Virus record (IMG/VR): IMGVR_UViG_3300021952_000482
Coordinates: 1 to 37,460 of that record
DNA: 37,460 bases
Direction: 5' to 3' (one strand)
From: a virus
The translations under genes and the position numbers were made by a program. Below, piece by piece: positions 8,980 through 36,633 of this stretch (the stretch's first letter is position 1; every line of letters starts with the position of its first letter). Below the pieces are notes generated by a model. The model searched no databases, was not told the DNA's origin, and saw only the letters and a list, made by a program, of their open reading frames with translations.

Positions 8980-9890
8980 ACACGATTTGCCAAGATAGAG
9001 ACCTCACGCACGGCGCGTTGGCGCACGCACGCATCGACGTGCAGGAGCACGCACACGCTGTCATGTGCCGCGCTTTGGAGAACGCCCGCATTGACCCGCG
9101 TTTGTGCGATGTCACACACACCGATACGCAGGAGCAAGTTGGCAAAAAAGGGGCTGGAAGTTGGCAAAGTTTTGCCAACTGGATTCAGTTAGCAGACTGT
9201 TGCCAACTTAATTCCTTTTCATATCAACCACTTACGTGTTTTCCGGTTCAGTTGGCAGTTGGCAGTTGGCAAATGTTGCCAACTGAGCCAAGTCCTTGTT
9301 TTTATTCACTTTCTGCCCATTCCGAAGTTGGCGAAATCTCCCCCTCCTACTACGTAGGAGAGGGGGCTGATGCCCTCTCTCCGTTACGTAGGGAGAGTAC
9401 CCACGCGCTCGATCCGGTGTCTGCATCGCGCACCGTGGTCATGGCGATCGATCTGGGGACCACGACCGGTTGGGCCATGCGTACGCAGGGCGCGCAAGTC
9501 GTCCATGGCTTTGAGAGCTTCAAGCCAAGTCGTTACGAAGGCGGAGGTATGCGCTACCTGCGTTTTAAGCGTTGGCTCAGCGACATGCGCCATCTGGCCA
9601 CCGAAATCCACAGTTTGTATTTCGAGGAAGTGCGCCGCCATGCCGGCGTGGATGCGGCCCATGTCTACGGCGGACTGCTGGCCACGCTCACTGCTTGGTG
9701 CGAGCACCACAACATCCCTTACCAAGGGGTGCCCGTGGGAACGATCAAGAAGCACGCCACCGGCAAGGGCAATGCAGGCAAGTCAGAAGTTATGGACGCG
9801 ATGCGGGAACTGGGGCATCCGGTGACCGATGACAACGAGGCAGATGCATTAGCACTGTTGCACTGGGCTTTGGACACACAGGAGGAATGA
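8976..9890 (+). CDS. RuvC-like resolvase domain protein with an odd N-terminal extension
   Basis: The C-terminal 150 residues form a RuvC-like RNase H fold. They contain VMAIDLGTTTGWA (about 155-166), an acidic FEEVRRH strand, GKSEVMDAMRELG and DDNEADALALLHWA near the end, giving the acidic catalytic set of Holliday-junction resolvase-like nucleases. The start at 8976 overlaps the primase stop (ATGA) and has an AGGAG site. However, residues 52-150 are translated from the TTGGCAA repeat and TACGTA hairpin region, and codons there lose the high third-position GC of the flanks. The active protein may instead start at GTG 9435 or ATG 9441, though neither has a good ribosome-binding site. The domain is sure; the start is not. 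Confidence 0.75.
   Translation: MNTICQDRDLTHGALAHARIDVQEHAHAVMCRALENARIDPRLCDVTHTDTQEQVGKKGAGSWQSFANWIQLADCCQLNSFSYQPLTCFPVQLAVGSWQMLPTEPSPCFYSLSAHSEVGEISPSYYVGEGADALSPLRRESTHALDPVSASRTVVMAIDLGTTTGWAMRTQGAQVVHGFESFKPSRYEGGGMRYLRFKRWLSDMRHLATEIHSLYFEEVRRHAGVDAAHVYGGLLATLTAWCEHHNIPYQGVPVGTIKKHATGKGNAGKSEVMDAMRELGHPVTDDNEADALALLHWALDTQEE
9136..9335. repeat. Array of about nine TTGGCA(A) sites in both orientations, candidate origin or operator
   Basis: Forward copies of AGTTGGCA(A) start near 9136, 9158, 9249, 9256, 9263 and 9325; inverted copies TTGCCAACT start near 9172, 9200 and 9276. Two pairs make perfect palindromes with 10-bp arms: 9159-9168 with 9171-9180 (2-nt spacer) and 9263-9272 with 9276-9285 (3-nt spacer). 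The three copies at 9249-9271 are spaced seven bases apart. The region is richer in A and T than its flanks and lies just behind the primase-helicase gene. That position fits iterons of a replication origin, or multiple operator sites. Repeat positions are read directly; the function is inferred. Confidence 0.85.
9344..9397. repeat. Paired TACGTA-containing hairpins next to the TTGGCAA array
   Basis: The first hairpin has arms CTCCTAC (9344-9350) and GTAGGAG (9354-9360). The second has CTCTCC (9377-9382) and GGAGAG (9392-9397), with a TACGTA in its loop. Between them, GAGAGGG and CCCTCTC can pair around CTGATG, so alternative folds compete. Together with the preceding repeats this is a dense secondary-structure zone inside an open reading frame. 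It may be part of an origin, or an RNA element controlling the downstream RuvC-like gene. Confidence 0.75.
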
Positions 9891-9891
9891 C

Positions 9892-10284
9892 ATGGGTACA
9901 GCAACACTTCAATGGACAACAGATGACGTGGCCAACTGGCTCATCGAGGCCTCGCGCACAGCACATCGCTTGCCACCGGTCAGGGTGCAGGGGCACTTCA
10001 ACTGCTGGCCCACCATCGTGCGAACAGACTACGAGCGCATGGCCAGCAACGACCCGCCGGTCTATCGCTTCCCTCCAACCCCGGTCGAGGTGGAGCGCAT
10101 GCTTGTGGTCATGCAATGGGTCCAGTGTTTGGATGTCGAGCAACGCAAGTTGGTGTGGATGCGGGCTGAACGCTGGCGCTGGTATGACATTGGCAAACGC
10201 TTCGGTGTGGCTCCGCGCACGGCACAACGGCATTGGGAGGTCGCAATTCAGACCATCACCGAACATATTTCGCGTGGAGGTTGA
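9892..10284 (+). CDS. DUF6362-like phage protein with helix-turn-helix
   Basis: This 130-aa protein ends in a clear helix-turn-helix stretch, YDIGKRFGVAPRTAQRHWEVAI, preceded by a helix with VEVERMLVVMQWVQCLDVEQRKLVWMRAERW. The layout resembles the sigma-like/DUF6362 phage family. The role is probably DNA binding or late-gene regulation, which fits its place as the last gene of the early operon and just upstream of the late genes. A good AGGAGG site lies 7 bases before the ATG. A longer overlapping frame at 9887-10369 lacks family features and is a shadow. Confidence 0.82.
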   Translation: MGTATLQWTTDDVANWLIEASRTAHRLPPVRVQGHFNCWPTIVRTDYERMASNDPPVYRFPPTPVEVERMLVVMQWVQCLDVEQRKLVWMRAERWRWYDIGKRFGVAPRTAQRHWEVAIQTITEHISRGG

Positions 10285-10489: not shown

Positions 10490-11779
10490 ATGAATCCCAT
10501 CCACATCGAATACCGCCAGGTCGACGTCCTGATCCCCTATGCCCGCAATGCCAAGCTGCATTCGGAAGCGCAGGTGGCCCAGATCGCGGCCAGCATCCGG
10601 GAGTTCGGATGGGGCGCTCCGATCCTGATCGATGGCCAAAACAACGTCATTGCAGGCCATGGTCGGCTCATGGCTGCCCGCAAGCTCGGTCTGCCTGAGG
10701 TGCCAGTGGTACCGCTTGAGCATCTGTCTGACACCCAGCGTCGCGCACTGATCCTGGCTGACAACAAGATTGGCGAGAACGCCTCTTGGGAAGACGAGCT
10801 GCTGGGCATCGAATTGGCAGACCTCAAAGACGCAGGGTTTGATCTGGGCCTGACCGGCTTTTCGCAAGAGGAGTGGGAAGCCCTGATCGCTGGTGAGGAA
10901 GCCACGAAGGATGGACTCACTGATGAGGATGCCGTGCCCGAGGTCAGCGAGACGCCGATTTCGAAGACTGGCGACATCTGGGTCCTGGGTGAGCACAAGT
11001 TGCTGTGTGGCGATGCCACCAAGGCCGACGATTTCAAGGCCCTGCTGGGAGAGGAACTGGTGGACATGACCTTCACCGATCCGCCCTACAACGTGAACTA
11101 CGCGAACACGGCCAAAGACAAGATGCGTGGCAAGAATCGCCCCATCATGAACGACAACCTGGGCGATGGCTTCGGCAGCTTCCTGTTGGACGCATGCACG
11201 AACATCCTGACCCACACCAAGGGTGCCGTCTACATCGCCATGAGTTCCTCGGAACTGGACACCCTCCAGTCGGCCTTCCGTGCCGCTGGCGGTCGTTGGT
11301 CCACGTTCATCATCTGGGCCAAGAACACGTTCACGCTCGGACGCGCGGATTACCAACGCCAGTACGAACCCATCCTGTACGGCTGGCGTGATGGATCAGA
11401 CCACTTCTGGTGTGGTGCCCGTGACCAGGGTGACGTCTGGAATGTCAAGAAGCCGCAGAAGAACGACCTGCACCCTACGATGAAGCCGGTGGAACTGGTC
11501 GAACGTGCAGTGCGCAACAGCAGCAAGACCCGAGACCTGGTGCTTGATCCGTTCGGCGGATCTGGTTCAACGTTGATTGCCTGCGAAAAATCGGGACGCC
11601 GCGCCCGACTCATCGAACTTGATCCCAAGTATGTCGATGTGATCGTCAAGCGCTGGGAGGAGTTCACTGGACGCAAGGCCGTCAGATTCTCAGCAGTTGA
11701 GAACTCGCAAACCATGGGGGATCAGATGGCTCTCTTGGATTCAAATCCTGATGACTATGGGGCAGAGCTTGGTAATTGA
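10490..11779 (+). CDS. ParB-like N-terminal domain fused to a DNA methyltransferase
   Basis: Residues 1-95 form a ParB/Srx-like domain (VDVLIPYARNAKLHSEAQV, then VIAGHGRLMAARKLG and ALILADNKI). Residues 160-415 form an S-adenosylmethionine-dependent N6-adenine or N4-cytosine methyltransferase with DPPY (197-200), HPTMKPVEL (328-336) and the SAM-binding DPFGGSGST (353-361). DPPY precedes the FxGxG motif, as in beta-class enzymes. Fusions like this are frequent in phages and prophages and methylate phage or host DNA, which can block restriction; no restriction enzyme partner is seen. The gene is separated from the early operon by a terminator-like hairpin. Its 3' end overlaps the convergent gene on the other strand. 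Confidence 0.92.
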   Translation: MNPIHIEYRQVDVLIPYARNAKLHSEAQVAQIAASIREFGWGAPILIDGQNNVIAGHGRLMAARKLGLPEVPVVPLEHLSDTQRRALILADNKIGENASWEDELLGIELADLKDAGFDLGLTGFSQEEWEALIAGEEATKDGLTDEDAVPEVSETPISKTGDIWVLGEHKLLCGDATKADDFKALLGEELVDMTFTDPPYNVNYANTAKDKMRGKNRPIMNDNLGDGFGSFLLDACTNILTHTKGAVYIAMSSSELDTLQSAFRAAGGRWSTFIIWAKNTFTLGRADYQRQYEPILYGWRDGSDHFWCGARDQGDVWNVKKPQKNDLHPTMKPVELVERAVRNSSKTRDLVLDPFGGSGSTLIACEKSGRRARLIELDPKYVDVIVKRWEEFTGRKAVRFSAVENSQTMGDQMALLDSNPDDYGAELGN

Positions 11780-25799: not shown

Positions 25800-26500
25800 C
25801 AGTCCAAACAATCACCACAGAAATCCAGAAGCTCTCCCCGAGTGCAGTCATCGAGCTCTTCGTGATGGACCTGACCCTCTTCAACGAAGGCGTGGTTCGC
25901 TTTCATGCAGGCACCAACGAGCTGCGCCGTCAGGTGGTCTGGCAGGGCAATACCTATGAGCCGTTTCCTATTCAGGCTGAAGGCTTTGAGTTCAACGGCA
26001 ACGGCCAGGTGCCGCGTCCCAAACTCAAGGTGGCCAACGTCACGGGCAGCATCACTGCGCTGATCCTCTCCTACCAGGACCTGGTGGGTGCTCGGGTCAC
26101 GCGAAAGCGCACGCTGCTCAAGTACCTCGATGCCGTGAATTTCGGGACCGGTACCAACCCGACCGCAGACCCGACGGCCGAGTTTGCCGACGATGTGTAT
26201 TTCATTGACCGAAAGTCACGAGAGACCCGGGATGTGGTCGAGTTCGAGTTGGCTGCTTCTTTCGATCTCGAAGGAGTGTCCTTGCCCAGACGGCAGATTG
26301 TTCAAAACGTCTGCCCCTGGAGCTACCGGGGCTCGGAGTGCGGCTACACCGGGACGGCCTATTTCAATGCCAACGATGAGACGGTGACTTCACGGTCGCA
26401 GGATGTCTGCGGCAAAAGGCTCGTGTCCTGCCAGAAGCGATTTGGCTCGAATGCCGAGTTGCCCTTTGGCGGGTTTCCAGCGGCGGGGTTGATCCGATGA
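25796..26500 (+). CDS. Minor tail protein, lambda gpL-like, likely Fe-S protein
   Basis: The 234-aa protein matches the lambda tail L family (PF05100). It starts with a strand-rich region including IELFVMDLTLFNEGVVRFH, and its C-terminus holds four cysteines (C173, C182, C205, C212) in CPWSYRGSECGYTG and DVCGKRLVSCQKRFG. In lambda gpL the equivalent cysteines bind a [4Fe-4S] cluster, so the same is expected here. It overlaps its neighbours on both sides by four bases. Confidence 0.93.
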   Translation: MTVQTITTEIQKLSPSAVIELFVMDLTLFNEGVVRFHAGTNELRRQVVWQGNTYEPFPIQAEGFEFNGNGQVPRPKLKVANVTGSITALILSYQDLVGARVTRKRTLLKYLDAVNFGTGTNPTADPTAEFADDVYFIDRKSRETRDVVEFELAASFDLEGVSLPRRQIVQNVCPWSYRGSECGYTGTAYFNANDETVTSRSQDVCGKRLVSCQKRFGSNAELPFGGFPAAGLIR

Positions 26501-27228
26501 TGGACTCCATCAACCAATCGCTGGCGCTGGCCCATGCTGCTAGGGAGTTTCCCCGCGAAGCCTGTGGCCTGCTCGTCATCCACAAGGGCCGGGAGACCTA
26601 CGTTCCATGCCGCAACATTGGCGTGGGTACCGACCAGTTCGTGATCCATCCCGAGGACTATGTCCAGGCCGATCGGCTTGGAGAGATCGTGGGGGTGTTC
26701 CATTCCCATCCGAATCTGCCTGCTGAGCCCAGCCAAGCCGACAAAGTGGCCTGCGAAGCTTCTGGCTTGCCCTGGTTCATTCTGTCCTTCCCCTCTGGGC
26801 AGTGGCATGAGATGCAGCCATCTGGCTACATCGCTCCCTTGGTCGGTCGGGCATGGGCCCACGGGGTGCTTGATTGCTACTCGGTGATCAGGGACTGGTA
26901 TCGGGCAGAGCGAGGCATTGATCTGCCGAACTTTGACCGCTTTGACGAGTGGTGGAAGCGCGGCCAGAGCCTGTACCTCGACAACATCGGTTCGGCAGGC
27001 TTTGAGGCGCTGGGAGCCGTTCAATCCCAGGACATGGAAGTTGGCGATGTGCTCCTGATGCAGGTGGCATCACCTGTTCCCAACCATGCCGCCATTTACC
27101 TGGGTGACGGTCTGATCCTGCATCACCTGCAGGGCAGGCTTTCCAGCCGGGACGTGTATGGCGGCTACTGGCAAAAGATCACGACGCACATCCTGAGACA
27201 CCGCACAGAAATAACCCGACCTCCATGA
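26497..27228 (+). CDS. Tail tip peptidase: JAMM domain plus NlpC/P60 domain (gpK-like)
   Basis: The 243-aa protein has two domains. The N-terminal half is a JAMM/MPN metalloprotease-like fold with GVFHSHPNLPAEPSQAD (H69, H71, S79, D82, the JAMM zinc set). The C-terminal half is an NlpC/P60 (C40) hydrolase with DCYSVIRDWY (C127) and a later NHAAIYLGDG (H197). This is the lambda gpK arrangement, thought to process the tail tip and to cut peptidoglycan at entry. All key residues are visible, so both domains could be active. Confidence 0.94.
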   Translation: MMDSINQSLALAHAAREFPREACGLLVIHKGRETYVPCRNIGVGTDQFVIHPEDYVQADRLGEIVGVFHSHPNLPAEPSQADKVACEASGLPWFILSFPSGQWHEMQPSGYIAPLVGRAWAHGVLDCYSVIRDWYRAERGIDLPNFDRFDEWWKRGQSLYLDNIGSAGFEALGAVQSQDMEVGDVLLMQVASPVPNHAAIYLGDGLILHHLQGRLSSRDVYGGYWQKITTHILRHRTEITRPP

Positions 27229-27818
27229 CCACCATCATCCTTCTTGGCGAACTGGGCAAGCGCTTCGGTCGAAGGCACAAGATGGCAGTTGCCTCGGCAG
27301 CGGAAGCGGTGCGTGCCCTGTGCGCGAACTTTCCCACCTTCGAGCGAGAGCTCGTGGTTTCAGGTGAGCGAGGTGTGGGCTACCGGGTGCTGGCCGGGCG
27401 GGACGCCTTGAATCTTGATCGGCTGCATGAGCCCACAGGGCAGCAGCACATCACGATTGCACCCGTGATCTCCGGTGCTGGGGGCAATGGACTGGGCCAG
27501 ATCCTTTTGGGGGCAGCCCTGATCGCTGTGTCCTGGTGGAACCCGATGGGCTGGGCTGCTGCTGGATCGTTTCTCTCGCAGGCCACGCTCTATTCGGTGG
27601 GTACTTCCATGATTTTGGGTGGTGTGGCCCAGATGATTGCTCCGACGGCCAAGTCTTCTGACCCTTCCGAACGACCAGAAAACCAGCCGAGCTACGTTTT
27701 CAACGGCGCTGTGAACACCACGGCCCAAGGGCATCCCGTGCCTGTGGGTTACGGGCGGCTGATTGTGGGTTCGGCCGTGATCAGCGCCGGCATTGATGTG
27801 GATGAAATAGCTGTATGA
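27225..27818 (+). CDS. Tail assembly protein, lambda gpI-like
   Basis: The 197-aa protein has an N-terminal ubiquitin-like segment (ILLGELGKRFGRRHKMAVAS), then AVRALCANFPTFERELV and a Gly/Ala-rich hydrophobic stretch near residues 85-130 (including ILLGAALIAVSWWNPMGWAA). This matches the Lambda_tail_I family (PF06805). It works in tail-tip assembly with gpJ and gpK. It overlaps both neighbours by four bases. Confidence 0.92.
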   Translation: MTTIILLGELGKRFGRRHKMAVASAAEAVRALCANFPTFERELVVSGERGVGYRVLAGRDALNLDRLHEPTGQQHITIAPVISGAGGNGLGQILLGAALIAVSWWNPMGWAAAGSFLSQATLYSVGTSMILGGVAQMIAPTAKSSDPSERPENQPSYVFNGAVNTTAQGHPVPVGYGRLIVGSAVISAGIDVDEIAV

Positions 27819-30800
27819 GCACCGTTGATTCGCAATTGATTGTCGGAGCTGGCGGTGGCGGCAAATCCGGGGGAGGCAGTGCTCGCGTGGCCCAGGAAGC
27901 GCCCGACAGCCTGCGCTCCAAGGCTTATGCCCGGGTGGTTGACCTCGTTTGCGAGGGCGAAATTGAGGGCTTGGTTGGTGGTTTGAAGTCAGTCTATCTG
28001 GACGATACACCCATCCAGAATTCAGACGGCTCGTACAACTTCACCGGTGTGACGCTGGAGGCACGGACCGGAACCCAGCAGCAAAACTACATCCCTGGCT
28101 TTTCCTCTGTGGAAAACGAGGTCTCGGTCGGGGTGGAGTTCAAATACGGTCAGCCCGTGGTGCGCTCCATCACCGACCCGGACGTGGACGCTGTACGCAT
28201 CAAGGTCAGCATCCCGACGCTGACGCTGCAGGACACGACCAATGGTGATCTGAACGGTACTTCGGTCAGCTATGCAATTGACCTGCAGTCCCGTGGAGCC
28301 GGTTATGTGCAGATCCTGCAAGACACGGTTTCAGGCAAAACTTCATCACGCTACCAGCGCAGTTACTACGTTCCTTTGTCCGGGACTGGTCCCTGGGATG
28401 TGCGCTTGCGCCGCATCACGGCCGACTCGACGCAAACCAGCCTGCAAAACAAGACCTTCCTCGAGTCCTACACCGAGGTGATCGAGAGCAAGCTGCGCTA
28501 CCCCAACAGCGCGCTGATGGCCTTGCGGGTCGACGCCTCGCAATTCACCTCGATTCCCCGGCGCAGCTATGACCTCAAGCTCCTTCGGGTTCGCATCCCG
28601 TCGAACTACTTTCCCGAGACCCGCTCCTATGCCGGTGTCTGGGATGGCAGCTTCAAGGTCGCTTGGACGGACAACCCCGCTTGGTGCTTCTATGACCTGG
28701 TGACCAATACCCGCTACGGTCTTGGCAATTACATCCTTGAGTCGCAGGTCGACAAGTGGGCGCTGTACCGGGTGGCCAAGTACTGTGACGAGTTGGTGCC
28801 CAACGGGCTGGGTGGCTATGAGCCACGCTTTACCTGTAATCTGTACCTGCAGACCCGGGAGCAGGCCTACAAGGTGGTGCAGGACATGGCTTCGGTGTTC
28901 CGGGGCATGGCTTATTGGTCGGGTGGCGCCATCACGGTCACGCAGGATGCGCCGCAGGATCCGGTCTACCAGTTCACCGCTGCCAACGTTGTCGATGGTG
29001 AGTTCGCCTATCAGGGGTCATCTGCCAAGGCTCGGCACACAGTGGCGCTGGTCAGCTGGGTGGATCCGGATGATTTCTACCGCCAGAAGGTGGAATACGT
29101 CGAGGACCTCGCAGGCATCGCCCGTTATGGAGTGGTTCAGGCCGATGTGGTGGCCATGGGGTGCACCTCTCGTGGTCAAGCCAACCGGGTGGGCAAATGG
29201 CTGCTGTACTCCGAGCAGTCCGAGTCGGAGATCACCACTTTCCGCACCGGACTCGAGGGTGCGGTGGTTCGGCCTGGTGATGTCATCAAGGTGGCCGATG
29301 CCAGCCGGGGTGGCATGCGACTGGGTGGGCGCATTGCTGCGGCCACAACCGTCAGTGTCACGCTCGATCAAGACCTGCCCGCAGGATCTTGGCGGATCTC
29401 CGTGGTGCTACCCACCGGTGTCGTTGAAGAGCGGCAAGTGGGGTCGCTCTCTGGCCGGACTGTGGGGGTGACCAGCGTGTTTTCGATGGCTCCCCAAGTT
29501 GGCGCGATTTGGGTGCTGTCTTCCACGCTGGTGGAGGCTCAGCTCTTTCGTGTGGTGCAAGTCGCTGAAAGCGAACCCGGCATTCACGAAATCACGGCGC
29601 TGGCGCACAACCCCAGCAAGTACGCAGCCATCGAGCAGGGCCTGGCCTTGCAGCCTCGTGTCATCACGGTGCTCTCGACCACGCCAGCGGCCCCGACGAG
29701 GCTGACCGTGACCGAGAGCTTGTACCGAGTCAAGGATCAGGCACTCGTGCTGATCCAGCTCGGATGGGATCAGGTCTTTGGGGCACTGGAGTACCAGGCG
29801 ACCTACCGCGTCAACGGCGGCAACACGGTCACGCTGCCCAAAGTCTCCAGCACCTATCTGGAAATCCGAAACGCTGAGGCAGGTGAATACGTCTTCACGG
29901 TCCGGGCTGTGGGTGTGTCGGGCAAGCTGGGCAATTCCGCAAGCCTGAGCCAAAGCATTCTGGGCAAGCTCCAGCCGCCTGACGATGTGCAGGACTTTGT
30001 GGTGTTGCGCCGAACGACCGATCTGCTCCTGAGCTGGAGTGCCAATACCGATGCAGACCTCTCGGGGTATGAGGTACGGGTCGGCACAGGGTGGGATTCG
30101 GGTGTGATGGTCGGGCAGACAGCGGGCACGCAGCTGGTGCATGACCAAAGCGAGTCGGGTCAGTACAACTATCACATCCGTGCTTTTGACACCTCCGGAA
30201 AGTACAGCCAACACGTCACCACCTTCCAGCTCACTTTGCTCGCTCCCTCATCGGTGCGGCAATTCGATGTGGTGCAGTCAGCCAACCGGCTGGAGTTTCG
30301 TTGGCTGCCAAATCCCGAGCCGGAGGTCGTGGCTTATGAGTTGCGGGAAGGGGGTGCCTGGGACACCTCGATCTTCATTGCCGAGGTCAAGTCCAGCAGT
30401 TTCACGCTGCCCTCGGGCTTTGATGGGGAGCGCAAGTTCTGGATCAAGGCGATCGCATCGCCCGGCATTTACTCGGAAGATGCCACCTTCGTCTCAACAG
30501 TGGTGGCGCAGCCCCAGAACGCCAATCTGCTGGTGACAGTGGATGCTCAGGCGACCCGATTCCCCGGCGTGAAGCATTTCGCCTCGGTCGAATCGGTCAA
30601 CAGCCTGGATGTGCTGCGCATGGACAGCGGGGTGACCCAGTCAGAGTACCTGTTTGAGGTAAACCTACCCACCAGCTACCGTGCGCAGAACACCTTGCTG
30701 GCAAGCATCGGGGCAACACTGGACGACCGCGAGACCTGGACCTCAGCCAATTACGCCTGGATCAGCTCGGCTGCTAAGCGGCAATGGACCTATGACGGGG

Positions 30801-31324
30801 CACTCAAAAGCATCGAAGCGAGGTTTCAGATGGCCCGTGAGGATGCGCTGCAAGCAGGAGAGCTTTACGGCTGGCGACTCAATGGTGTGCTCAGCGGCTA
30901 CGGAAACCCCGTTGGCTCTGAAGCCGTTGGCGTGGGATATGGAGATGGGCGCTACGGCAGTGGTGTGCTGGTCAAGGACACAACCAAGGTGTCCTGGGGG
31001 GTCAGCATTCCGGGTGTCTTTCATGTGAGCTTCTGGTTCATCCCAAATCAGATAACCACATCGGTTATGTGGGCGGCCACGGGTTCCGGTGTGAGCCTCC
31101 TGGTCGGCTATGACTCGGTGGCAGGAGCGTTCTTTCTGGAGGACCAACTCTTTAACCGGGTGGTGGTGCCTTACTTCGTTAACGTGGCCGATCGCATCTG
31201 CATCGGCGTGTGTCAGACGGCAACAGAGCGCAGGCTATTTGTTGGAAAAATGGGAGGGGAAGTTCAAAGCGCAAGTAAGCCACTGGCACCTACTTCAGGG
31301 TATTCATCCCTCAAGCTGTACTGA
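27815..31324 (+). CDS. Host-specificity/tail tip protein, lambda gpJ-like
   Basis: The 1169-aa protein follows the lambda J layout. It starts with a Gly-rich stretch (GAGGGGKSGGGSARVAQ), then SKAYARVVDLVCEGEIEGLV, the diagnostic gpJ opening. A large baseplate-like core contains VRIPSNYFPETRSYAGVWDG and NPAWCFYDLVTNTRYGLGNY. From about residue 620 three fibronectin-type III-like units follow, and from about 1045 a strand-rich end looks like a LamG/concanavalin carbohydrate-binding module. It forms the central tail tip and contacts the host receptor. The variable C-terminus is the most likely binding part. Confidence 0.95.
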   Translation: MSTVDSQLIVGAGGGGKSGGGSARVAQEAPDSLRSKAYARVVDLVCEGEIEGLVGGLKSVYLDDTPIQNSDGSYNFTGVTLEARTGTQQQNYIPGFSSVENEVSVGVEFKYGQPVVRSITDPDVDAVRIKVSIPTLTLQDTTNGDLNGTSVSYAIDLQSRGAGYVQILQDTVSGKTSSRYQRSYYVPLSGTGPWDVRLRRITADSTQTSLQNKTFLESYTEVIESKLRYPNSALMALRVDASQFTSIPRRSYDLKLLRVRIPSNYFPETRSYAGVWDGSFKVAWTDNPAWCFYDLVTNTRYGLGNYILESQVDKWALYRVAKYCDELVPNGLGGYEPRFTCNLYLQTREQAYKVVQDMASVFRGMAYWSGGAITVTQDAPQDPVYQFTAANVVDGEFAYQGSSAKARHTVALVSWVDPDDFYRQKVEYVEDLAGIARYGVVQADVVAMGCTSRGQANRVGKWLLYSEQSESEITTFRTGLEGAVVRPGDVIKVADASRGGMRLGGRIAAATTVSVTLDQDLPAGSWRISVVLPTGVVEERQVGSLSGRTVGVTSVFSMAPQVGAIWVLSSTLVEAQLFRVVQVAESEPGIHEITALAHNPSKYAAIEQGLALQPRVITVLSTTPAAPTRLTVTESLYRVKDQALVLIQLGWDQVFGALEYQATYRVNGGNTVTLPKVSSTYLEIRNAEAGEYVFTVRAVGVSGKLGNSASLSQSILGKLQPPDDVQDFVVLRRTTDLLLSWSANTDADLSGYEVRVGTGWDSGVMVGQTAGTQLVHDQSESGQYNYHIRAFDTSGKYSQHVTTFQLTLLAPSSVRQFDVVQSANRLEFRWLPNPEPEVVAYELREGGAWDTSIFIAEVKSSSFTLPSGFDGERKFWIKAIASPGIYSEDATFVSTVVAQPQNANLLVTVDAQATRFPGVKHFASVESVNSLDVLRMDSGVTQSEYLFEVNLPTSYRAQNTLLASIGATLDDRETWTSANYAWISSAAKRQWTYDGALKSIEARFQMAREDALQAGELYGWRLNGVLSGYGNPVGSEAVGVGYGDGRYGSGVLVKDTTKVSWGVSIPGVFHVSFWFIPNQITTSVMWAATGSGVSLLVGYDSVAGAFFLEDQLFNRVVVPYFVNVADRICIGVCQTATERRLFVGKMGGEVQSASKPLAPTSGYSSLKLY

Positions 31325-31360: not shown

Positions 31361-31396
31361 AGGCGTTGCACCCATTGGGGCAACGCCTATTTTTTT
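31361..31396 (+). terminator. Hairpin with T-tract before the fibre module
   Basis: Arms AGGCGTTGC (31361-31369) and GCAACGCCT (31380-31388) form a perfect 9-bp stem, and seven T residues follow (31390-31396). GGAG of the next ribosome-binding site starts on the very next base. It ends the tail-tip transcript or acts as a switch before the fibre genes. Confidence 0.85.
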
Positions 31397-31407
31397 GGAG
31401 AAATCTC

Positions 31408-31854
31408 ATGATGGATGAAGGCATGCAAATCAAGGGCTCGCTCACGCTTGTGCTGGCCAAGCCAAGTGGCGAGGTCGAAGTGGTCCACAAAGACAACATC
31501 ATCGTCAACGGCGGCTTTGACTTCGTGGCCGATGCGATTGGCAACTCTGGTAGTCGCCCCGGTGTGATGGGCTGGATTGCGGTGGGGACGGGCACGACTG
31601 CTGCGGCCTCGACTCAGACCGCTCTTGTCACAGAGATCAAGCGCAACGCCTCGACCTACGCCCACACGGCAGGCACCAAGGTGTTCACCTTCACGGCCAG
31701 CTATGCGGCGGGCGACGCTACAGGCGCATTGACCGAGGCAGGTGTGTTCAATGCAGCCTCGGCTGGAACCATGTTTGATCGTGTGGTGTTCCCGGTGGTC
31801 AACAAGGGGGTGGACGACAGCCTGACCGCTGTTTTCACCTTCACGATGAGCTGA
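31408..31854 (+). CDS. Putative tail/fibre accessory protein
   Basis: This 148-aa protein is not a named family to me. It is strand-rich, beginning QIKGSLTLVLAKPSGEVEVV, then KDNIIVNGGFDFVADAIG and IAVGTGTTAAASTQTAL, ending in a hydrophobic strand (TAVFTFTMS). Similar small beta proteins lie between gpJ and fibres in several phages and are virion components. The ATG at 31408 follows GGAG; an upstream start at 31366 would lie inside the hairpin. A fibre or tip role is inferred from position. Confidence 0.75.
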   Translation: MMDEGMQIKGSLTLVLAKPSGEVEVVHKDNIIVNGGFDFVADAIGNSGSRPGVMGWIAVGTGTTAAASTQTALVTEIKRNASTYAHTAGTKVFTFTASYAAGDATGALTEAGVFNAASAGTMFDRVVFPVVNKGVDDSLTAVFTFTMS

Positions 31855-31867
31855 TTGGGCGATTGAA

Positions 31868-33058
31868 ATGGCCGAGACCGTCAACGTCTCAAGCTCGCCG
31901 GGGGCCAATTACACCTGGACCTCTGGCAAGTTTGCATGGAGCAGCGCCACAGCCGGTAAGAACTGGACGAGTGCCTATCCGGCGGTCTACAGCCTGAGCG
32001 TGGCCACGGACATCAGTTTCACGGAGTTGATCCAGAAGCTGGGAATCAAGCGAAGCTCCGAAACCATTGCCTTTGCTGAGAAGCAAGGCAAAGGGCTGGT
32101 ACTGAACAAGTTCGAGGTCATGAGTTTTGCCGAGACCTACACGGACCTCATTGCTTTTGTTCTGAGGTTTGTTGAGTCCTTTGCGTTGGCTGAAAAGAAC
32201 GGGCTTTCCAACACCAAGCGGGTGTTCGAGGTGTTTCAGGTGGCCGAGGGGTTGGCGCGACAGATTGCATTGCGAAAGTTCGAGACGCTGGCGCTGGCTG
32301 AGACCTACACCGACCTCATTGCATTCATCTTGCGCGTGGGCGAAAGCTTCAGCTTTGTCGAGACACCATCAAAGGCGCTCACCAAGCCACAGGCAGAGAC
32401 TTTCAGGTTCACTGAGTCGCTGTCCAGGTCGCAGGTCAAACGGATCTCCGAGACGTTTGTGTTCGCTGAGTTTTTTGGACGGACCGTAGCCTATCGAAAA
32501 GCGATCAGCGAAGGGTTTGCGATTGGGGAGTCGCTGCGTCGTGCGCAGACCTTGAAGCTGGCCGAGGCCTTGAGCCTTGCTGAGCAATACAGAAGGCGAG
32601 CAAACGGTGTCATCAGCGACATGATCGTTGCAAGCACAGAGATCACCGAGCAGGACTTCATTGACATCCTGGAGTCTGGCCATCCTCCGGGGTACACCAA
32701 TTTCCGGGACTTCATTCAGGGCGACTACACCTACCAGCGGGCGCTGTTCAGGGCGATTTTGACCTCCAGCAATGCTGATCGGGGCTACATCGATGGTCTG
32801 CGCGTCACGGTGGATGTGCCCGATGTCTTTGACCGTGGCACTGCCCAGGTGAGCAATGCGGCCAATGGCGTGACGGTTGTCTTTTCCCGGCAGTTTCGTG
32901 TCTCGCCAGAGGTCACGCTCACCTTCAAGGGGGGCACCACTGTGGCCGTCCCCCGAATCCTGGGCACGGTATCCACCACAGGTTTCACCGCAGTTCTTGA
33001 AAACACCTCCGGCACCCGGGTCACAGGGGCCATTTCTTGGGTTGCACAAGGGTATTAA
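31868..33058 (+). CDS. Fibre-region protein with regular glutamate-anchored repeats
   Basis: The 396-aa protein has no named family I recognise. Its N-terminal 45 residues resemble a virion-attachment segment (TWTSGKFAWSSATAGKNW). From about residue 47 to 247 it contains ten copies of E-x5-E with the pattern E-[ST]-[FL]-x-[FL]-A-E. The second Glu falls at 53 (partial unit), 71, 89, 109, 127, 145, 165, 183, 201, 221 and 239, so spacing cycles 18-18-20. A strand-rich C-terminal domain follows (FRDFIQGDYTYQRALF, VTLTFKGGTTVAVPR). It is probably a structural shaft with a tip domain. It abuts the next fibre gene exactly. Confidence 0.8.
   Translation: MAETVNVSSSPGANYTWTSGKFAWSSATAGKNWTSAYPAVYSLSVATDISFTELIQKLGIKRSSETIAFAEKQGKGLVLNKFEVMSFAETYTDLIAFVLRFVESFALAEKNGLSNTKRVFEVFQVAEGLARQIALRKFETLALAETYTDLIAFILRVGESFSFVETPSKALTKPQAETFRFTESLSRSQVKRISETFVFAEFFGRTVAYRKAISEGFAIGESLRRAQTLKLAEALSLAEQYRRRANGVISDMIVASTEITEQDFIDILESGHPPGYTNFRDFIQGDYTYQRALFRAILTSSNADRGYIDGLRVTVDVPDVFDRGTAQVSNAANGVTVVFSRQFRVSPEVTLTFKGGTTVAVPRILGTVSTTGFTAVLENTSGTRVTGAISWVAQGY
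32006..32608 (+). repeat. Coding repeats with 168-base super-period
   Basis: The segment encoding residues 47-247 of the preceding protein repeats every 54, 54 and 60 bases. This makes a 168-base (56-residue) super-repeat; for example the residues AETYTDLIAF recur exactly one super-period apart (from A88 and from A144). Such a pattern is subject to recombination and can change the shaft length. Confidence 0.85.
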
Positions 33059-33982
33059 ATGCAAAACTACACCGAAATTCCATCGTCAACGACGCTGTCG
33101 GATTCGTTGTCTCAGATCCTGAACAACGACAAGACAGCGCTCTCGCTCTCAAGCGGAACGTCTTTCCCGACGGTCAACTTGCAACTTGGCATGCCTTGCT
33201 TCAGGACAGACGAGCAAAAGCTCTACATCCTCACGGTGGTCAGTCCTGCTTCTTGGAAGATGGTCATTGACCTCTCCGCCACAGTTGGCAAGGTGGCCAA
33301 TGCGGACCTGCTCGATGGCATTGATTCCACTGGGTTCGCTTTGGCGGGTCACAACCATGACGCGGCATATGCCGCGCTGGGCCATAACCACAATGCCGCC
33401 TACCTGGGCATCACGGCCAAGGCTGCCGATGCTGACAAGCTCGATGGCTATGACTCGACAGCCTTTGTGCGATCGGTCAACGGGTACGGTCCGGATGCCA
33501 ATGGCAATTCCAGTGTGCCTATTGATCTTTCGAGCCGTGTGGCCAAGTCTGGCGACACCATGACTGGCACCCTCACGGCGCCCAGGCTGCAAATTGCAGG
33601 AACGGCCAACTATCTGGACATGGTCGATCAGGACTGGGGGACTCGCTACCTACATCACAACCAGGGACTCATGGGATTTTTGAAATCCGATGGCAACTGG
33701 GACATGTACATGAACAACAGTGGTCAGATGTGGACAGCCAATTACGGATGGCTACACGACTACTTCTTCAGCACTATCGCCAACTGTTTCATCGGCAACT
33801 GCCCGGGTAACACGGGCAATTGCAGCCCAGTAGGCAACAACGCGACTTCTGTGGTTTCGAACTGCGGTAGCGCATCTTTTGTCCGAGATGAACTGGTGGA
33901 CAACGGCAGCCAGATTGCTGTCCGAAGAACCCAATACAACTTCAATTGCAACTGCAACTGCAATTGCGATTGCTATTGCTGA
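33059..33982 (+). CDS. Tail fibre with Asn-Cys-rich C-terminus, likely substrate of a maturation system
   Basis: The 307-aa protein is a short tail fibre. Typical fibre signatures are LAGHNHDAAY and LGHNHNAAYLG (about 95-116) and KSGDTMTGTLTAPRL (163-177). Past residue 240 it becomes Cys-rich, with C243, C248, C255 and C269, each after Asn, then C297, C299, C301, C303, C305 and C307 at the end. Eight of these ten Cys follow Asn; the last two follow Asp and Tyr. Cys is the final residue. The next three genes, 13 bases away, encode an oxygenase-like protein, an unknown and a radical SAM/SPASM enzyme. I infer the Cys/Asn segment is modified after translation. Metal binding or cross-linking are alternatives. 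Confidence 0.88.
   Translation: MQNYTEIPSSTTLSDSLSQILNNDKTALSLSSGTSFPTVNLQLGMPCFRTDEQKLYILTVVSPASWKMVIDLSATVGKVANADLLDGIDSTGFALAGHNHDAAYAALGHNHNAAYLGITAKAADADKLDGYDSTAFVRSVNGYGPDANGNSSVPIDLSSRVAKSGDTMTGTLTAPRLQIAGTANYLDMVDQDWGTRYLHHNQGLMGFLKSDGNWDMYMNNSGQMWTANYGWLHDYFFSTIANCFIGNCPGNTGNCSPVGNNATSVVSNCGSASFVRDELVDNGSQIAVRRTQYNFNCNCNCNCDCYC
33944..33979 (+). repeat. Six hexanucleotide repeats ending in TGC at the fibre 3' end
   Basis: Six six-base units each end in TGC (Cys): four start with AAT or AAC, one with GAT and one with TAT. They encode the alternating Asn/Asp/Tyr-Cys tail and run directly into the stop codon TGA. Such a repeat could gain or lose units by slippage, changing the number of Cys residues. 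Confidence 0.9.
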
Positions 33983-33995
33983 TCCAGGATAAACC

Positions 33996-34574
33996 ATGAA
34001 CTCTTTGAACAACATCTTCCCGGCTCCGGTTCTTCGCATCCAGGGGCTTTTGAGTCCCGCCGAGGTGGAGCTGGCGACTGAGCTTGCAACCAAGGCTAAC
34101 GAGCGCCTGAATGACCATCAGGTCCCGTACTCCCGAACTTACCGTGACAGCCTGGACTTCATGTTCCCGGAGTTCTTCAAGCCCATCTTCCGACGCTTGC
34201 GCCGCAGCATCGAGGACGAGTTCAAGTGCAACGTCAGCAACATGGTGGGACGCGAATCCATTTTTCGCTACGGCCAGCATCTGCCATTCCATACTGAGCC
34301 GCACGCTGATATTTCTTGCGTGCTGTGGCTGGACTTCCCCGCAAAGCCCGACCCATCCAGGCGCGACTACTCGGGCATGTTCTGCCTGCATAACCCGCAT
34401 CTCTTGTTTGGTGGCCGCGCAACAGGGGTGTTTGGCAATATCAACCACATGGAAATGCCATCGCCTGGTGATGCCTTCGTTTTCCCTTCTCACATGCCGC
34501 ACTTTGTGTTCCCGTACAACGGCGAGCGCCCTGGCGTGGAACTTCACTTTGAAATGCTTGCGGAGGCTGCATGA
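33996..34574 (+). CDS. 2OG-Fe(II) oxygenase-like protein
   Basis: The 192-aa protein resembles the small putative 2-oxoglutarate/Fe(II) oxygenase group. HTEPHADISCVLWLDFP (99-115) gives an H-x-D pair (H103, D105). FPSHMPHFVFPYNGERPG (163-180) gives the distal histidine (H169, or H166) and the Arg that binds 2-oxoglutarate (R178). The double-stranded beta-helix order is right. Such enzymes hydroxylate amino acid side chains or small molecules. It follows the Cys-rich fibre by 13 bases and overlaps the next gene by four. The fibre's Asn, Asp or Tyr residues are attractive substrates, as Asn/Asp hydroxylation is known for this superfamily; this is inference. Confidence 0.72.
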   Translation: MNSLNNIFPAPVLRIQGLLSPAEVELATELATKANERLNDHQVPYSRTYRDSLDFMFPEFFKPIFRRLRRSIEDEFKCNVSNMVGRESIFRYGQHLPFHTEPHADISCVLWLDFPAKPDPSRRDYSGMFCLHNPHLLFGGRATGVFGNINHMEMPSPGDAFVFPSHMPHFVFPYNGERPGVELHFEMLAEAA

Positions 34575-35266
34575 AGCTCGTTACCTTCAATGCCAGCGTC
34601 GATGAAGAAAAGGCTGTGCGTGTAGATCAAACTGCTGAAGGCTACACCGTCTCATTTGCTGGCGCATCCATCAACATTGACGTACAACTTTTTAAGCAGG
34701 GCGAGCTGCAGTTCCTGATGTATGGCAAGCAGTATCAGAGCGAAGTCATCGGAATCGTGTCTCAGCGCGAATATGTAGACAGCCGCGATGGCCTGACGAT
34801 CCTGGCTCAACACGGCCTGACAGATGGCCTCGGCTGGTTTTACTTCGGCGAAACCACCGAAGAGGCCTGTCTATGCATTACCAAGGCCATGGCGGCTCAG
34901 TGCCCCTTCGACATCGTGCAGCCGGGCAAGCCTCGTGATGTTCTGCCAGGTATCTTCCCCGACAGCGAAAGGCTGGGGGTTCGCAACCTGGCCAAGATCG
35001 CGCTGCTGCGCAAGCTCAACCCGCTCGACAGCCTCGCCGCCCTGGAAAAGCAGGTCGACTTGCTCAGCTCCCTGGTCATCCAACTGGCCAACCTGGTGCC
35101 AGGCCACGAGGGCATTGCCCTTGTCGACCACCTCAAGCACATCATCACCGATGCCAGCGCAAACGCAGGCAAGAGCGACGAGCATACCGTCGCCAGCGTG
35201 ATGTCTTTCAAGATGGCGCTGCGCCAGGCGCAGGCCGATTACTTCGCTGCACGCGACGGAGCCTAA
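34571..35266 (+). CDS. Unknown protein in the fibre-modification operon
   Basis: I do not recognise this 231-aa protein. Residues 1-95 look strand-rich (KLVTFNASVDEEKAVRV, then YTVSFAGASINIDVQLF, and GWFYFGE further on), and the C-terminal 110 residues look helical, with DSLAALEKQVDLLSSLVIQL. No catalytic motif is visible. It overlaps the oxygenase gene by four bases, and its stop codon overlaps the radical SAM start by one base, so all three are probably made together. It may bind the fibre substrate, like a peptide-recognition or chaperone subunit, or modify it. This is speculation based on position. Confidence 0.8.
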   Translation: MKLVTFNASVDEEKAVRVDQTAEGYTVSFAGASINIDVQLFKQGELQFLMYGKQYQSEVIGIVSQREYVDSRDGLTILAQHGLTDGLGWFYFGETTEEACLCITKAMAAQCPFDIVQPGKPRDVLPGIFPDSERLGVRNLAKIALLRKLNPLDSLAALEKQVDLLSSLVIQLANLVPGHEGIALVDHLKHIITDASANAGKSDEHTVASVMSFKMALRQAQADYFAARDGA

Positions 35267-36633
35267 TGATGGCCAAATTCATCCTTACTGCCATTAATCC
35301 TGAAAATGGCCAACGCACCCATTTCCACTACGACAACGCAACCAGCGAGTTGACCCGCGAATCTGGTGAGCCAGTGGTTCATGCGGTCGAAGTCGCTAAA
35401 CGCGTAGAGGCTCCAGCAGTCTCCAAGCAGACACCACTGGGCAAGTCCAGCCCCCGCACCCTCAAGATCAGCCTGGGCCTGTCTTGCAACTACGAGTGCG
35501 AATACTGCTCTCAGCGCTTCGTGCCGCGCGCGGTCGAAACCAACCCGGGCGATGTGCAGGCCTTCATCGATGGCCTCGACGCCTGGGTGACGAGCCCGCC
35601 CGAGAAGGTCGAGTTCTGGGGTGGCGAGCCTCTGGTCTACATCAAGACCATGCGCCCCCTGGCCGAGGCCATCAAGGCCAAGTTCCCCAAAGCAGATCTG
35701 TCGGTCATCACCAACGGCTCGCTGCTGAGCGATGACATCAACGAATGGCTTGATCGCATGGGCTTCAATGTCGGAATCTCGCACGATGGCCCAGGCCAGC
35801 ATGTGCGCGGCCCCGACCCCCTGAAGGATTCGCAGCAGCGCGCCGCCATCATGGCGCTTTACACCCGTCTGGCCCCGCAACGGCGCATCAGCTTCAATGC
35901 GATGGTCAATCGCGAGAACGTATCGCGCGCAGCTATCCAGCGCTTTTTTATCGAGCTGACTGGCGACCACATGGTCCCCATCGGCGAGGGTAGCTTTGTT
36001 GATGCCTATGACGAGGGTGGCATTGCTCACTCGCTTCAGCCAGATGAGCTGCACGCCTACCGCAATCTTGCCTTCCACGAAATCCGTACTGGCCAGGCCG
36101 CTAACGTCCAGGCCGTGAGTAGCAAGACGGCCAGCTTCGTCAATTCCATCCGTAGTCGTCGTCCTGCTTCCAGCCTGGGCCAGAAGTGCGGCATGGACAA
36201 GTCCGACAGCATCGCAGTCGACCTGCGCGGCAACGTCCTGACCTGCCAGAACGTGAGTGCAGCCAGCACCGCTCCCAATGGCCAGGCTCACCGCATTGGA
36301 CATGTATCCGACCTGACCGCTGTCAAGCTCGACACTGCCACGCATTGGAGTAAGAGGGGGGACTGCCCGAACTGCCCGATGTTGCAGATTTGCCAAGGCT
36401 CCTGCATGTTCCTGGAAGGCCCCCTGTGGGACCGGTCCTGCGAAAACGCCTTCTCTGACGCTGTACCGATCTTCGCCGCTGGCTTCGAGTTCTTGACTGG
36501 CTTGGTACCGATCTATATCGACGGTCCCCAGCGCGATGATCGAAAGGACATTTTCGGATTTCTGCGCTCGGATCAGGGGAATGCCGTCAGCCCCTCTGCG
36601 AAACGATTTCCTATCCGAGTTGTCGCCGCATAA
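35266..36633 (+). CDS. Radical SAM/SPASM enzyme, probable fibre maturase
   Basis: The 455-aa protein has the radical SAM cluster motif CNYECEYC (C74, C78, C81), then FWGGEP (118-122) and the TIM-barrel segments VITNGSLLS and VGISHDGPG. The C-terminal SPASM domain shows C308, the GNVLTC (G322-C327) pattern, then C367, C370, C376, C380 and C392, the usual ligands for two auxiliary Fe-S clusters. SPASM enzymes of this type mature peptides, making thioether or other bonds at Cys or other residues. An N-terminal extension of about 65 residues may be for substrate binding. It ends the operon that begins with the Cys-rich fibre, so the fibre is the natural candidate substrate. Confidence 0.93.
   Translation: MMAKFILTAINPENGQRTHFHYDNATSELTRESGEPVVHAVEVAKRVEAPAVSKQTPLGKSSPRTLKISLGLSCNYECEYCSQRFVPRAVETNPGDVQAFIDGLDAWVTSPPEKVEFWGGEPLVYIKTMRPLAEAIKAKFPKADLSVITNGSLLSDDINEWLDRMGFNVGISHDGPGQHVRGPDPLKDSQQRAAIMALYTRLAPQRRISFNAMVNRENVSRAAIQRFFIELTGDHMVPIGEGSFVDAYDEGGIAHSLQPDELHAYRNLAFHEIRTGQAANVQAVSSKTASFVNSIRSRRPASSLGQKCGMDKSDSIAVDLRGNVLTCQNVSAASTAPNGQAHRIGHVSDLTAVKLDTATHWSKRGDCPNCPMLQICQGSCMFLEGPLWDRSCENAFSDAVPIFAAGFEFLTGLVPIYIDGPQRDDRKDIFGFLRSDQGNAVSPSAKRFPIRVVAA

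Follow-up and report, generated by a model that had tools for sequence, protein, structure and literature searches.

The window analysed here is the whole of a 37,460-base virus record (IMG/VR record IMGVR_UViG_3300021952_000482), which carries helicase, primase, terminase, portal, head, tape-measure and lambda-like tail-tip genes. Within it, we examined a gene for a radical S-adenosylmethionine (SAM) enzyme with a SPASM region (35266–36633), together with a 307-residue tail-fibre-like protein encoded three genes upstream (33059–33982), whose C-terminus, FNCNCNCNCDCYC followed directly by the stop, carries an alternating array of asparagine and cysteine residues, preceded within 65 residues by four isolated Asn-Cys dipeptides. 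Our main finding is that the clade of this enzyme and C-terminal Asn-Cys arrays of fibres form a two-way, near-obligate pairing. Between the two genes lie an oxygenase-like gene and a gene for a protein that we call p231; the oxygenase-like gene, p231 and the enzyme are consecutive open reading frames (ORFs) overlapping by a few bases. The features concerned are:

35266–36633, + strand: radical SAM/SPASM enzyme, candidate fibre-tip maturase, 455 residues (ATG at 35266, stop at 36633)
35485–35508, + strand: CX3CX2C motif of the enzyme, C74/C78/C81, for the SAM-cleaving [4Fe-4S] cluster (sequence motif)
36187–36441, + strand: SPASM region of the enzyme, seven cysteines, C308–C392 (cysteine pattern, alignment of 37 relatives)
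35266–35457, + strand: N-terminal extension of the enzyme, residues 1–64, a possible substrate- or partner-binding element (AlphaFold2 model)
33059–33982, + strand: tail-fibre-like protein, 307 residues, presumed substrate (phrog_8443, tail fiber protein, E = 2.9e-6)
33782–33865, + strand: isolated Asn-Cys dipeptides of the fibre, C243, C248, C255 and C269 (sequence)
33944–33979, + strand: C-terminal array of the fibre, NCNCNCNCDCYC, presumed modification site (sequence, linkage counts)
33996–34574, + strand: 2-oxoglutarate (2OG)-Fe(II) oxygenase-like protein, 192 residues (phrog_81, E = 3.6e-11; PF13759, 22.7 bits, cut-off 27)
34571–35266, + strand: p231, partner protein, whose stop overlaps the enzyme start; an unrelated protein, p260, substitutes for it in other phages

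The initial annotation of this DNA described a complete radical SAM/SPASM enzyme that was expected to be active, with all cluster ligands visible. We recovered the same ligands under the same numbering (C74, C78 and C81 in the radical SAM motif; C308, C327, C367, C370, C376, C380 and C392 in the SPASM region), and all ten cysteines are unchanged throughout an alignment of 37 relatives, with a single representative taken from each 80%-identity cluster that had an unbroken long sequence. The seven-cysteine SPASM pattern reads CX9-15GX4C-CX2CX5CX3C-C, and the enzyme fits it, with G322 between the first two cysteines. Both domain models passed their cut-offs, Radical_SAM (PF04055, Pfam) at 32.8 bits against 29.5 and SPASM (TIGR04085, NCBIfam) at 32.5 bits against 27. 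Together with conservation across phages and the strict linkage to the fibre motif described below, these observations indicate a complete and plausibly active enzyme. In an AlphaFold2 model (predicted local distance difference test score (pLDDT) 89.2, predicted template modelling score (pTM) 0.88), the radical SAM core starts at a strand spanning residues 65–69, leaving an extension of about 64 residues, in line with the roughly 65 that the initial annotation had put forward as a possible recognition domain. The extension is predicted to be all-beta, with three strands (residues 4–10, 17–23 and 28–31) and no helices, and no Pfam or NCBIfam model matched it. Superpositions of CteB and TigE on the model start at residue 1, and the fold of the extension is not predicted to be a winged-helix, PqqD-like RiPP recognition element (RRE; RiPP, ribosomally synthesised and post-translationally modified peptide).

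Residues 309–326, between the first two SPASM cysteines, contain no cysteine in any of the 37 relatives, from which we predict that auxiliary cluster I (Aux I) of the enzyme has an open site. The second SPASM cysteine is followed by Gln328, again in 37 of 37. In anaerobic sulfatase-maturating enzymes (anSMEs), that position is an Asp acting as catalytic base, and an additional cysteine between the first and second SPASM cysteines ligates Aux I; both of these features, the Asp and a fully ligated Aux I, are missing from all 37.

We found 125 relatives of the enzyme in viral contigs, of which the best 80 were used, and 17 loci in bacterial genomes, a recurrence far beyond chance; with phages JWF and 2-1 and the window itself, this made a set of 100 enzyme loci. 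A tail was called where an upstream ORF on the same strand held an array no more than 25 residues from its C-terminus or directly before a Hint-like start. By this definition, 90 of the 100 loci have a tail array, and among those with at least 5.5 kb of upstream DNA the figure is 87 of 91 loci, or 35 of 36 clusters. The four misses in this group are L025, where the tail lies at the locus edge, L069, L218 and L219. L219, a Polynucleobacter prophage, represents the only cluster without a tail; there, four stops interrupt the enzyme match, the tail has degenerated and the oxygenase is split. The same decayed state occurs a second time in L238, with the enzyme in three pieces. The joint decay of enzyme and tail in these copies, and of the oxygenase as well in L219, suggests that their function was lost as a unit. 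As a control, ORFs upstream but on the other strand matched the array pattern in 7 of 1680 cases, mostly by reading the complement of the tail, and ORFs elsewhere in 3 of 3585.

The pairing also holds in the opposite direction. A scan of viral contigs for DNA encoding CNCNCNC found at least 119 stretches. In 52 of them the pattern falls close to the C-terminal end of an ORF that is 90 residues or longer, and the enzyme was present in 39 of these 52. Among the matches listed, every tail ORF with at least 4 kb of downstream DNA was accompanied by the enzyme (26/26), and the 13 without it all have less than 4 kb downstream; the 67 other stretches include five with the enzyme, four of which were placed there because the tail ORF is shorter than 90 residues. 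Scans started from neighbouring genes, in which the array pattern was widened to accept NCxC or NC[ND]C, agreed. With p231 as query, 29 of 29 loci had the enzyme and 28 of 29 the tail. With the fibre body minus its tail, 39 usable loci showed both tail and enzyme (29) or neither (10) and no discordant case (Fisher p = 1.6e-9, without correction for relatedness); in the ten loci with neither, similarity to the fibre is mostly confined to a short repeat segment. With the 162-residue gene of phrog_5417, tail and enzyme were both present at all 28 loci with enough downstream DNA. One of these neighbour-gene sets comprised 80 of 420 matches, with 69 newly numbered loci examined, and another 51 of 52. 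Contigs recur between scans, which thus support each other and are not fully independent. More distant radical SAM proteins of Thermus phage phiMa, Campylobacter phage CC_R7 and one faecal phage contig had no (Asn-Cys) array in the stretches fetched, so that the tail belongs with this clade rather than with phage radical SAM genes generally.

To describe the tail itself, we collapsed 191 tailed ORFs to 94 distinct tails. The arrays consist of 3–8 X-Cys units, mostly 4–5, and extend to the stop in 49 of the 94. Asn precedes the first array cysteine in 86 of 94 tails, and it also precedes cysteines outside the arrays of tailed proteins (201/285), against 76 of 1674 cysteines in the other ORFs of 41 representative loci. 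Asn three residues before cysteine is far less frequent (12 of 94 first array cysteines and 41 of 285 isolated ones); enrichment at the adjacent position and not likewise at the third therefore makes the dipeptide Asn-Cys the unit of the array. Neither NxxC, with Asn three residues before Cys, nor CX3D was supported as a common rule. One 14-residue tail peptide, NFNCNCNCNCDCYC, is encoded by nine synonymous DNA sequences, and thus the tail is kept at the protein level. Single-linkage grouping of the tailed proteins by their parts outside the array gives 11 groups with no similarity detected between them, one of which holds 173 of the 191. The initial annotation had alluded to the C-terminus of the fibre, but left the Asn-Cys array there undescribed.

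Some phages have three small genes in succession, each with its own array end (L062, L065–L068, L070–L074 and L080–L082); in L062, L065, L067, L071, L073 and L080 these encode proteins of about 90–170 residues, as if a fibre had been split into mini-proteins. On two further virus contigs, L097 (3051–11671, four matches) and, similarly, L175, a short NC-tailed ORF (FFDDYSTACNCNCNCNCTRGIL in L097) stands beside several consecutive radical SAM genes. These rows recall the eight radical SAM genes reported among the structural genes of Aeromonas phage 332-Vera, for which no substrate is named in the excerpt of the source that was available (PMC12390700).

The partner proteins divide the loci between them. 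p231 (about 230 residues) is present in 21 of the 100 loci and p260 (mostly 240–350 residues) in 73, and the two never occur together. They are not diverged versions of one family, as profile comparison shows no relation. On an enzyme tree, made by a quick method, in which L115 has a very long branch and rows without p231 or p260 data were left uncounted, the p231/p260 state shifts at least eight times. The two proteins look like interchangeable solutions to one task beside the fibre tail, for example presenting or folding it. The predicted structure of p231 (pLDDT 85.9) combines a beta domain with a helical part; a fold search found no match in the PDB at E = 0.001 or better and a single viral match, A0A8S5PXL9 (8e-7).

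A 2OG oxygenase profile matches in 71 of 100 loci. The oxygenase-like protein of the window falls below the PF13759 cut-off, as listed above, and all five relatives tested match the same model, two of them above the cut-off (L047, 38.7 bits; L083, 29.3 bits). In L038, where the oxygenase was not found upstream of the enzyme, genes of 284, 245 and 253 residues lie between p260 and the enzyme and may encode further modifying enzymes. The gene directly before the enzyme in L079 (8932–9993) encodes a 353-residue protein whose resemblance to asparagine synthase is very weak (E = 0.079). In Paraburkholderia sp. BCC1886 (L214), no p231, p260 or oxygenase was found at the locus, and a 151-residue protein (9512–9967) with scattered Asn-Cys clusters and an acidic Asp/Gly tail ends just before the enzyme.

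A second arrangement of the tail involves Hint-like sequences. In JWF, 2-1, L037, L040, Halomonas L220 and nine of the ten loci L240–L249, a Hint-like start (CFPAGT or similar) comes immediately after the array, an arrangement that changed at least twice on the enzyme tree. JWF gp028 matches Hom_end_hint (PF05203) over residues 308–344 at 47.5 bits against a cut-off of 32.1, residue 308 being the cysteine after the array; of seven further fibres of this type, six match a Hint model, all below the cut-off. Hint domains act at their first cysteine, and self-cleavage there would therefore leave the array as a new C-terminus, which agrees with the free tails found elsewhere.

The placement of the enzyme in a tail module, as first annotated, was borne out by a tape-measure gene, lambda-like tail components, J and fibres nearby, as well as by its linkage to the fibre motif. 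The local gene order is J, the 162-residue tail protein, the 396-residue fibre, the 307-residue fibre, the oxygenase-like gene, p231 and the enzyme, and the upstream members are:

27815–31324, + strand: central tail tip protein J, lambda-like, marking the tail-tip module (phrog_31, 1018 bits; PF24801)
31366–31854, + strand: tail protein, 162 residues (phrog_5417)
31868–33058, + strand: fibre-like protein, 396 residues, directly before the tailed fibre (weak C-terminal H-type lectin match, PF09458, 18.0 bits, below cut-off)

Elsewhere in the window, one ORF (10490–11779) matches both a ParB-like nuclease and a DNA methyltransferase (phrog_498, phrog_15396), and a tail protein (26497–27228) combines a JAB-type peptidase (PF14464) with an NlpC/P60 domain (PF00877).

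Matches to the enzyme in bacterial genomes come mostly from Burkholderiales metagenome-assembled genomes; named strains include Limnohabitans parvus II-B4 (L212), Paraburkholderia sp. BCC1886 (L214) and Halomonas sulfidaeris ATCC BAA-803 (L220), the match in the last containing stops. Among 50,697 phage records, close relatives occur in only three, two of JWF and one of 2-1. Plasmids held no close copies, the 12 distant matches all falling short of 80% coverage.

Comparison with known families placed the enzyme outside the known SPASM subfamilies, with peptide maturases as its nearest models. NCBIfam models ranked PapB (56.4 bits), viperin (49.5), QhpD (48.5), geopeptide (46.6), nif11 (44.9) and anSME (43), all far under their cut-offs. 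A profile search of the PDB returned 8vpo (TigE), anSME and 5wgg, which is CteB (PMC6231123, excerpt). Fold matches were led by CteB (Z = 24.1), ChlB (20.9), anSME (19.7) and TigE (19.4), and the SPASM maturases and radical SAM epimerases among them include the cross-linking and epimerising enzymes SuiB and EpeE. Clustering with a metabolic SPASM subfamily, the outcome that the initial annotation had named as refuting its reading, was not seen: peptide and protein maturases (PapB, QhpD, CteB, anSME, TigE) ranked first by NCBIfam, PDB-sequence and fold comparisons alike. Individual memberships were rejected for PapB (NF047865, equivalog cut-off 340 bits), anaerobic sulfatase maturase (TIGR03942, cut-off 349.45 bits) and prokaryotic viperin (NF038283, cut-off 180 bits), the last matching only residues 73–220 and being rejected also in the light of a PADLOC score of 51.5 bits. 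A short dedicated precursor with leader and core, as in RiPP systems, was not found either, the linked partners being fibre-like proteins of 307 residues here and about 67–1082 elsewhere; the system can still work like a RiPP system.

From these observations we consider it probable that the enzyme modifies the Asn-Cys tail of the adjacent fibre, and the best reading of the system is that of a phage-encoded, RiPP-maturase-like activity on Asn-Cys units at fibre tips. The fibre would be made with its Asn-Cys tail, evident in its sequence, and the substrate would be the (Asn-Cys)n array, probably along with the isolated Asn-Cys units just upstream. p231, or p260 elsewhere, may engage the tail, presenting or folding it. 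The enzyme would cleave SAM at the C74/C78/C81 cluster and take a hydrogen from the tail, either before the fibre trimerises or as it does so, and the SPASM clusters would complete the reaction, the open Aux I site possibly holding a substrate cysteine. The most likely product would be thioethers joining each cysteine sulfur to the immediately preceding residue, usually Asn, an assignment that we make tentatively and rate at somewhat less than an even chance. Such thioethers could make a thin tip rigid and redox-stable, to the benefit of receptor contact or fibre assembly. In most phages the oxygenase may add a further modification, perhaps hydroxylation, and in JWF-like phages the Hint domain would excise itself so that the array, placed directly before it, becomes the C-terminus. 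The finished tip may then aid fibre assembly or receptor contact.

Several observations weigh against this proposal. Linkage by itself is no proof of catalysis, and, with related loci and many contigs that turn up in more than one scan, the counts cannot be treated as independent. Of the 218 residues that precede array cysteines in the forward loci, 143 are Asn but 27 are Ala and 19 Asp, and a strict requirement for Asn as acceptor leaves these unexplained. No p231 or p260 was detected in 6 of 100 loci, the oxygenase is absent from 29 of 100, and no RRE was recognised in the enzyme with domain libraries or in the AlphaFold2 model. We know of no exact precedent for an Asn-adjacent unit. The known thioether maturases use other spacings, Cys and Asn being three residues apart in NxxcA (PMC8326336, excerpt).

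Alternating cysteines could, moreover, bind metal without any modification. The alternation places all cysteines on one face, and three such strands at the tip of a trimeric fibre might face inward and hold metal or an Fe-S cluster, the enzyme serving for cluster insertion or a small supporting modification. The iron needle of T4 gp37, with seven irons on recurring HxH motifs, also repeats alternating side chains in a phage fibre tip and illustrates that alternating tip residues can matter in phage fibres; it differs in using His with bound iron, and the excerpt of its source describes no modifying enzyme (PMC11705849). A metal needle alone would leave both the near-obligate radical SAM enzyme and the strict Asn before isolated cysteines elsewhere in the protein unexplained, and we regard it as unlikely. 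We judge it just as unlikely that an anSME-like reaction oxidises cysteine to formylglycine or a related residue, giving a reactive tip. This idea draws on the position of anSME among the closest sequences and folds and on one JWF record that labels the gene 'anaerobic sulfatase-maturating enzyme', yet the anSME Asp is replaced by Gln in all 37 relatives, the extra Aux I cysteine is missing and the TIGR03942 score is 43 bits against a cut-off of 349. Because of the open Aux I site and this Gln, the sequence favours chemistry on a cluster-bound cysteine, for example thioether formation, over cysteine oxidation.

A different radical reaction on the tail, such as C-C or C-N cross-linking, epimerisation to D-residues or a Cys-directed modification of Asn, has a better though still minor chance; SuiB and EpeE lie among the fold matches and Asn is the constant neighbour preceding Cys, but an open site at Aux I fits the binding of a thiol, and CteB, which ranks first by fold, forms thioethers. 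Lastly, the enzyme might act on p231 or p260, on another fibre or on the host, and be tied to the tail merely through a shared, exchangeable host-recognition cassette. One of the two partners stands beside the enzyme in 94 of 100 loci, and neighbours differ between related enzymes; against this, the unrelated partners swap at least eight times along the enzyme tree while the tail persists, tail and enzyme occur in L214 without p231 or p260, and tails sit on unrelated bodies. Of the explanations considered, this one appears the least probable.

Going further, we see an even chance that a widespread and hitherto unrecognised type of phage machinery, comprising a dedicated radical SAM enzyme, interchangeable partners and often a 2OG oxygenase, covalently reshapes the tips of receptor-binding fibres by turning Asn-Cys repeats into a ladder of cross-links between adjacent residues, with a self-removing Hint domain as an alternative way of exposing the tip. 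Our results suggest a chemical rebuilding of the virus fibre tip, of which no earlier report was found in the open-access PMC literature. That search, with subscription journals and preprints outside its scope, likewise found no paper linking a radical SAM enzyme with a fibre cysteine tail: radical SAM cassettes in a pelagimyophage host-recognition cluster have no substrate named in the available part of the report (PMC7029224), as for phage 332-Vera above, and the excerpts of PMC3322345 and PMC10457797 contain nothing on a substrate. Phage host recognition is usually seen as a matter of fibre sequence and fold. If the proposal is correct, host recognition would hinge on a modification invisible to sequence and structure prediction, as would the stability and engineering of fibres; radical SAM maturation would extend to a structural protein of the virion, under a new substrate rule, Cys after Asn, that differs from those of known maturases; and a large set of uncultured freshwater phages would gain a testable function, for which phages JWF and 2-1 and the prophage-borne copy in Limnohabitans parvus II-B4 offer cultured test cases.

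Among known systems, prokaryotic viperin (pVip) shares similarity to the radical SAM core (51.5 bits with PADLOC, 49.5 with NCBIfam) that ends at the core; to our knowledge, viperins have no SPASM region. anSME shares a close fold and the SPASM anatomy, and differs in the Asp and the Aux I cysteine discussed above. The best fold match, CteB, the SCIFF ranthipeptide maturase of C. thermocellum (Z = 24.1, root mean square deviation 4.5 over 351 residues, 16% identity), has the same radical SAM core and SPASM region with an open Aux I site, which is full in anSME (PMC6231123, excerpt), and likewise a Cys-rich substrate (PMC8326336, excerpt). It differs in having an RRE domain and a short precursor peptide (PMC6231123, excerpt), whereas here a virion fibre is the presumed substrate and the N-terminus is predicted to form three beta strands. 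The PapB family gave the best NCBIfam match across core and SPASM (residues 68–381), far under its 340-bit cut-off, and its substrate cysteine spacing differs. PapB makes freyrasin. In this product, thioethers link Cys to the C-beta of Asp (PMC8326336, excerpt). QhpD, of quinohemoprotein amine dehydrogenase maturation, is also a radical SAM/SPASM enzyme and modifies a full protein rather than a small peptide, forming Cys-Asp/Glu thioethers (PMC8326336, excerpt); its model scores 48.5 bits against a cut-off of 453, and what it modifies is a subunit of a bacterial enzyme rather than a phage fibre. The closest counterparts are the gp30-type radical SAM proteins (phrog_1802) of phages JWF and 2-1, which belong to the same family at 47–48% identity and have the same neighbours, a fibre with an NC array and p231, with the differences that a Hint domain follows the array and that the oxygenase was not found there; apart from the one JWF record mentioned, they are annotated just as radical SAM proteins. 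The pair described here looks like a maturase of the known radical SAM/SPASM kind together with its substrate, in this case a protein of the virion, and has a real chance of being a new kind of system.

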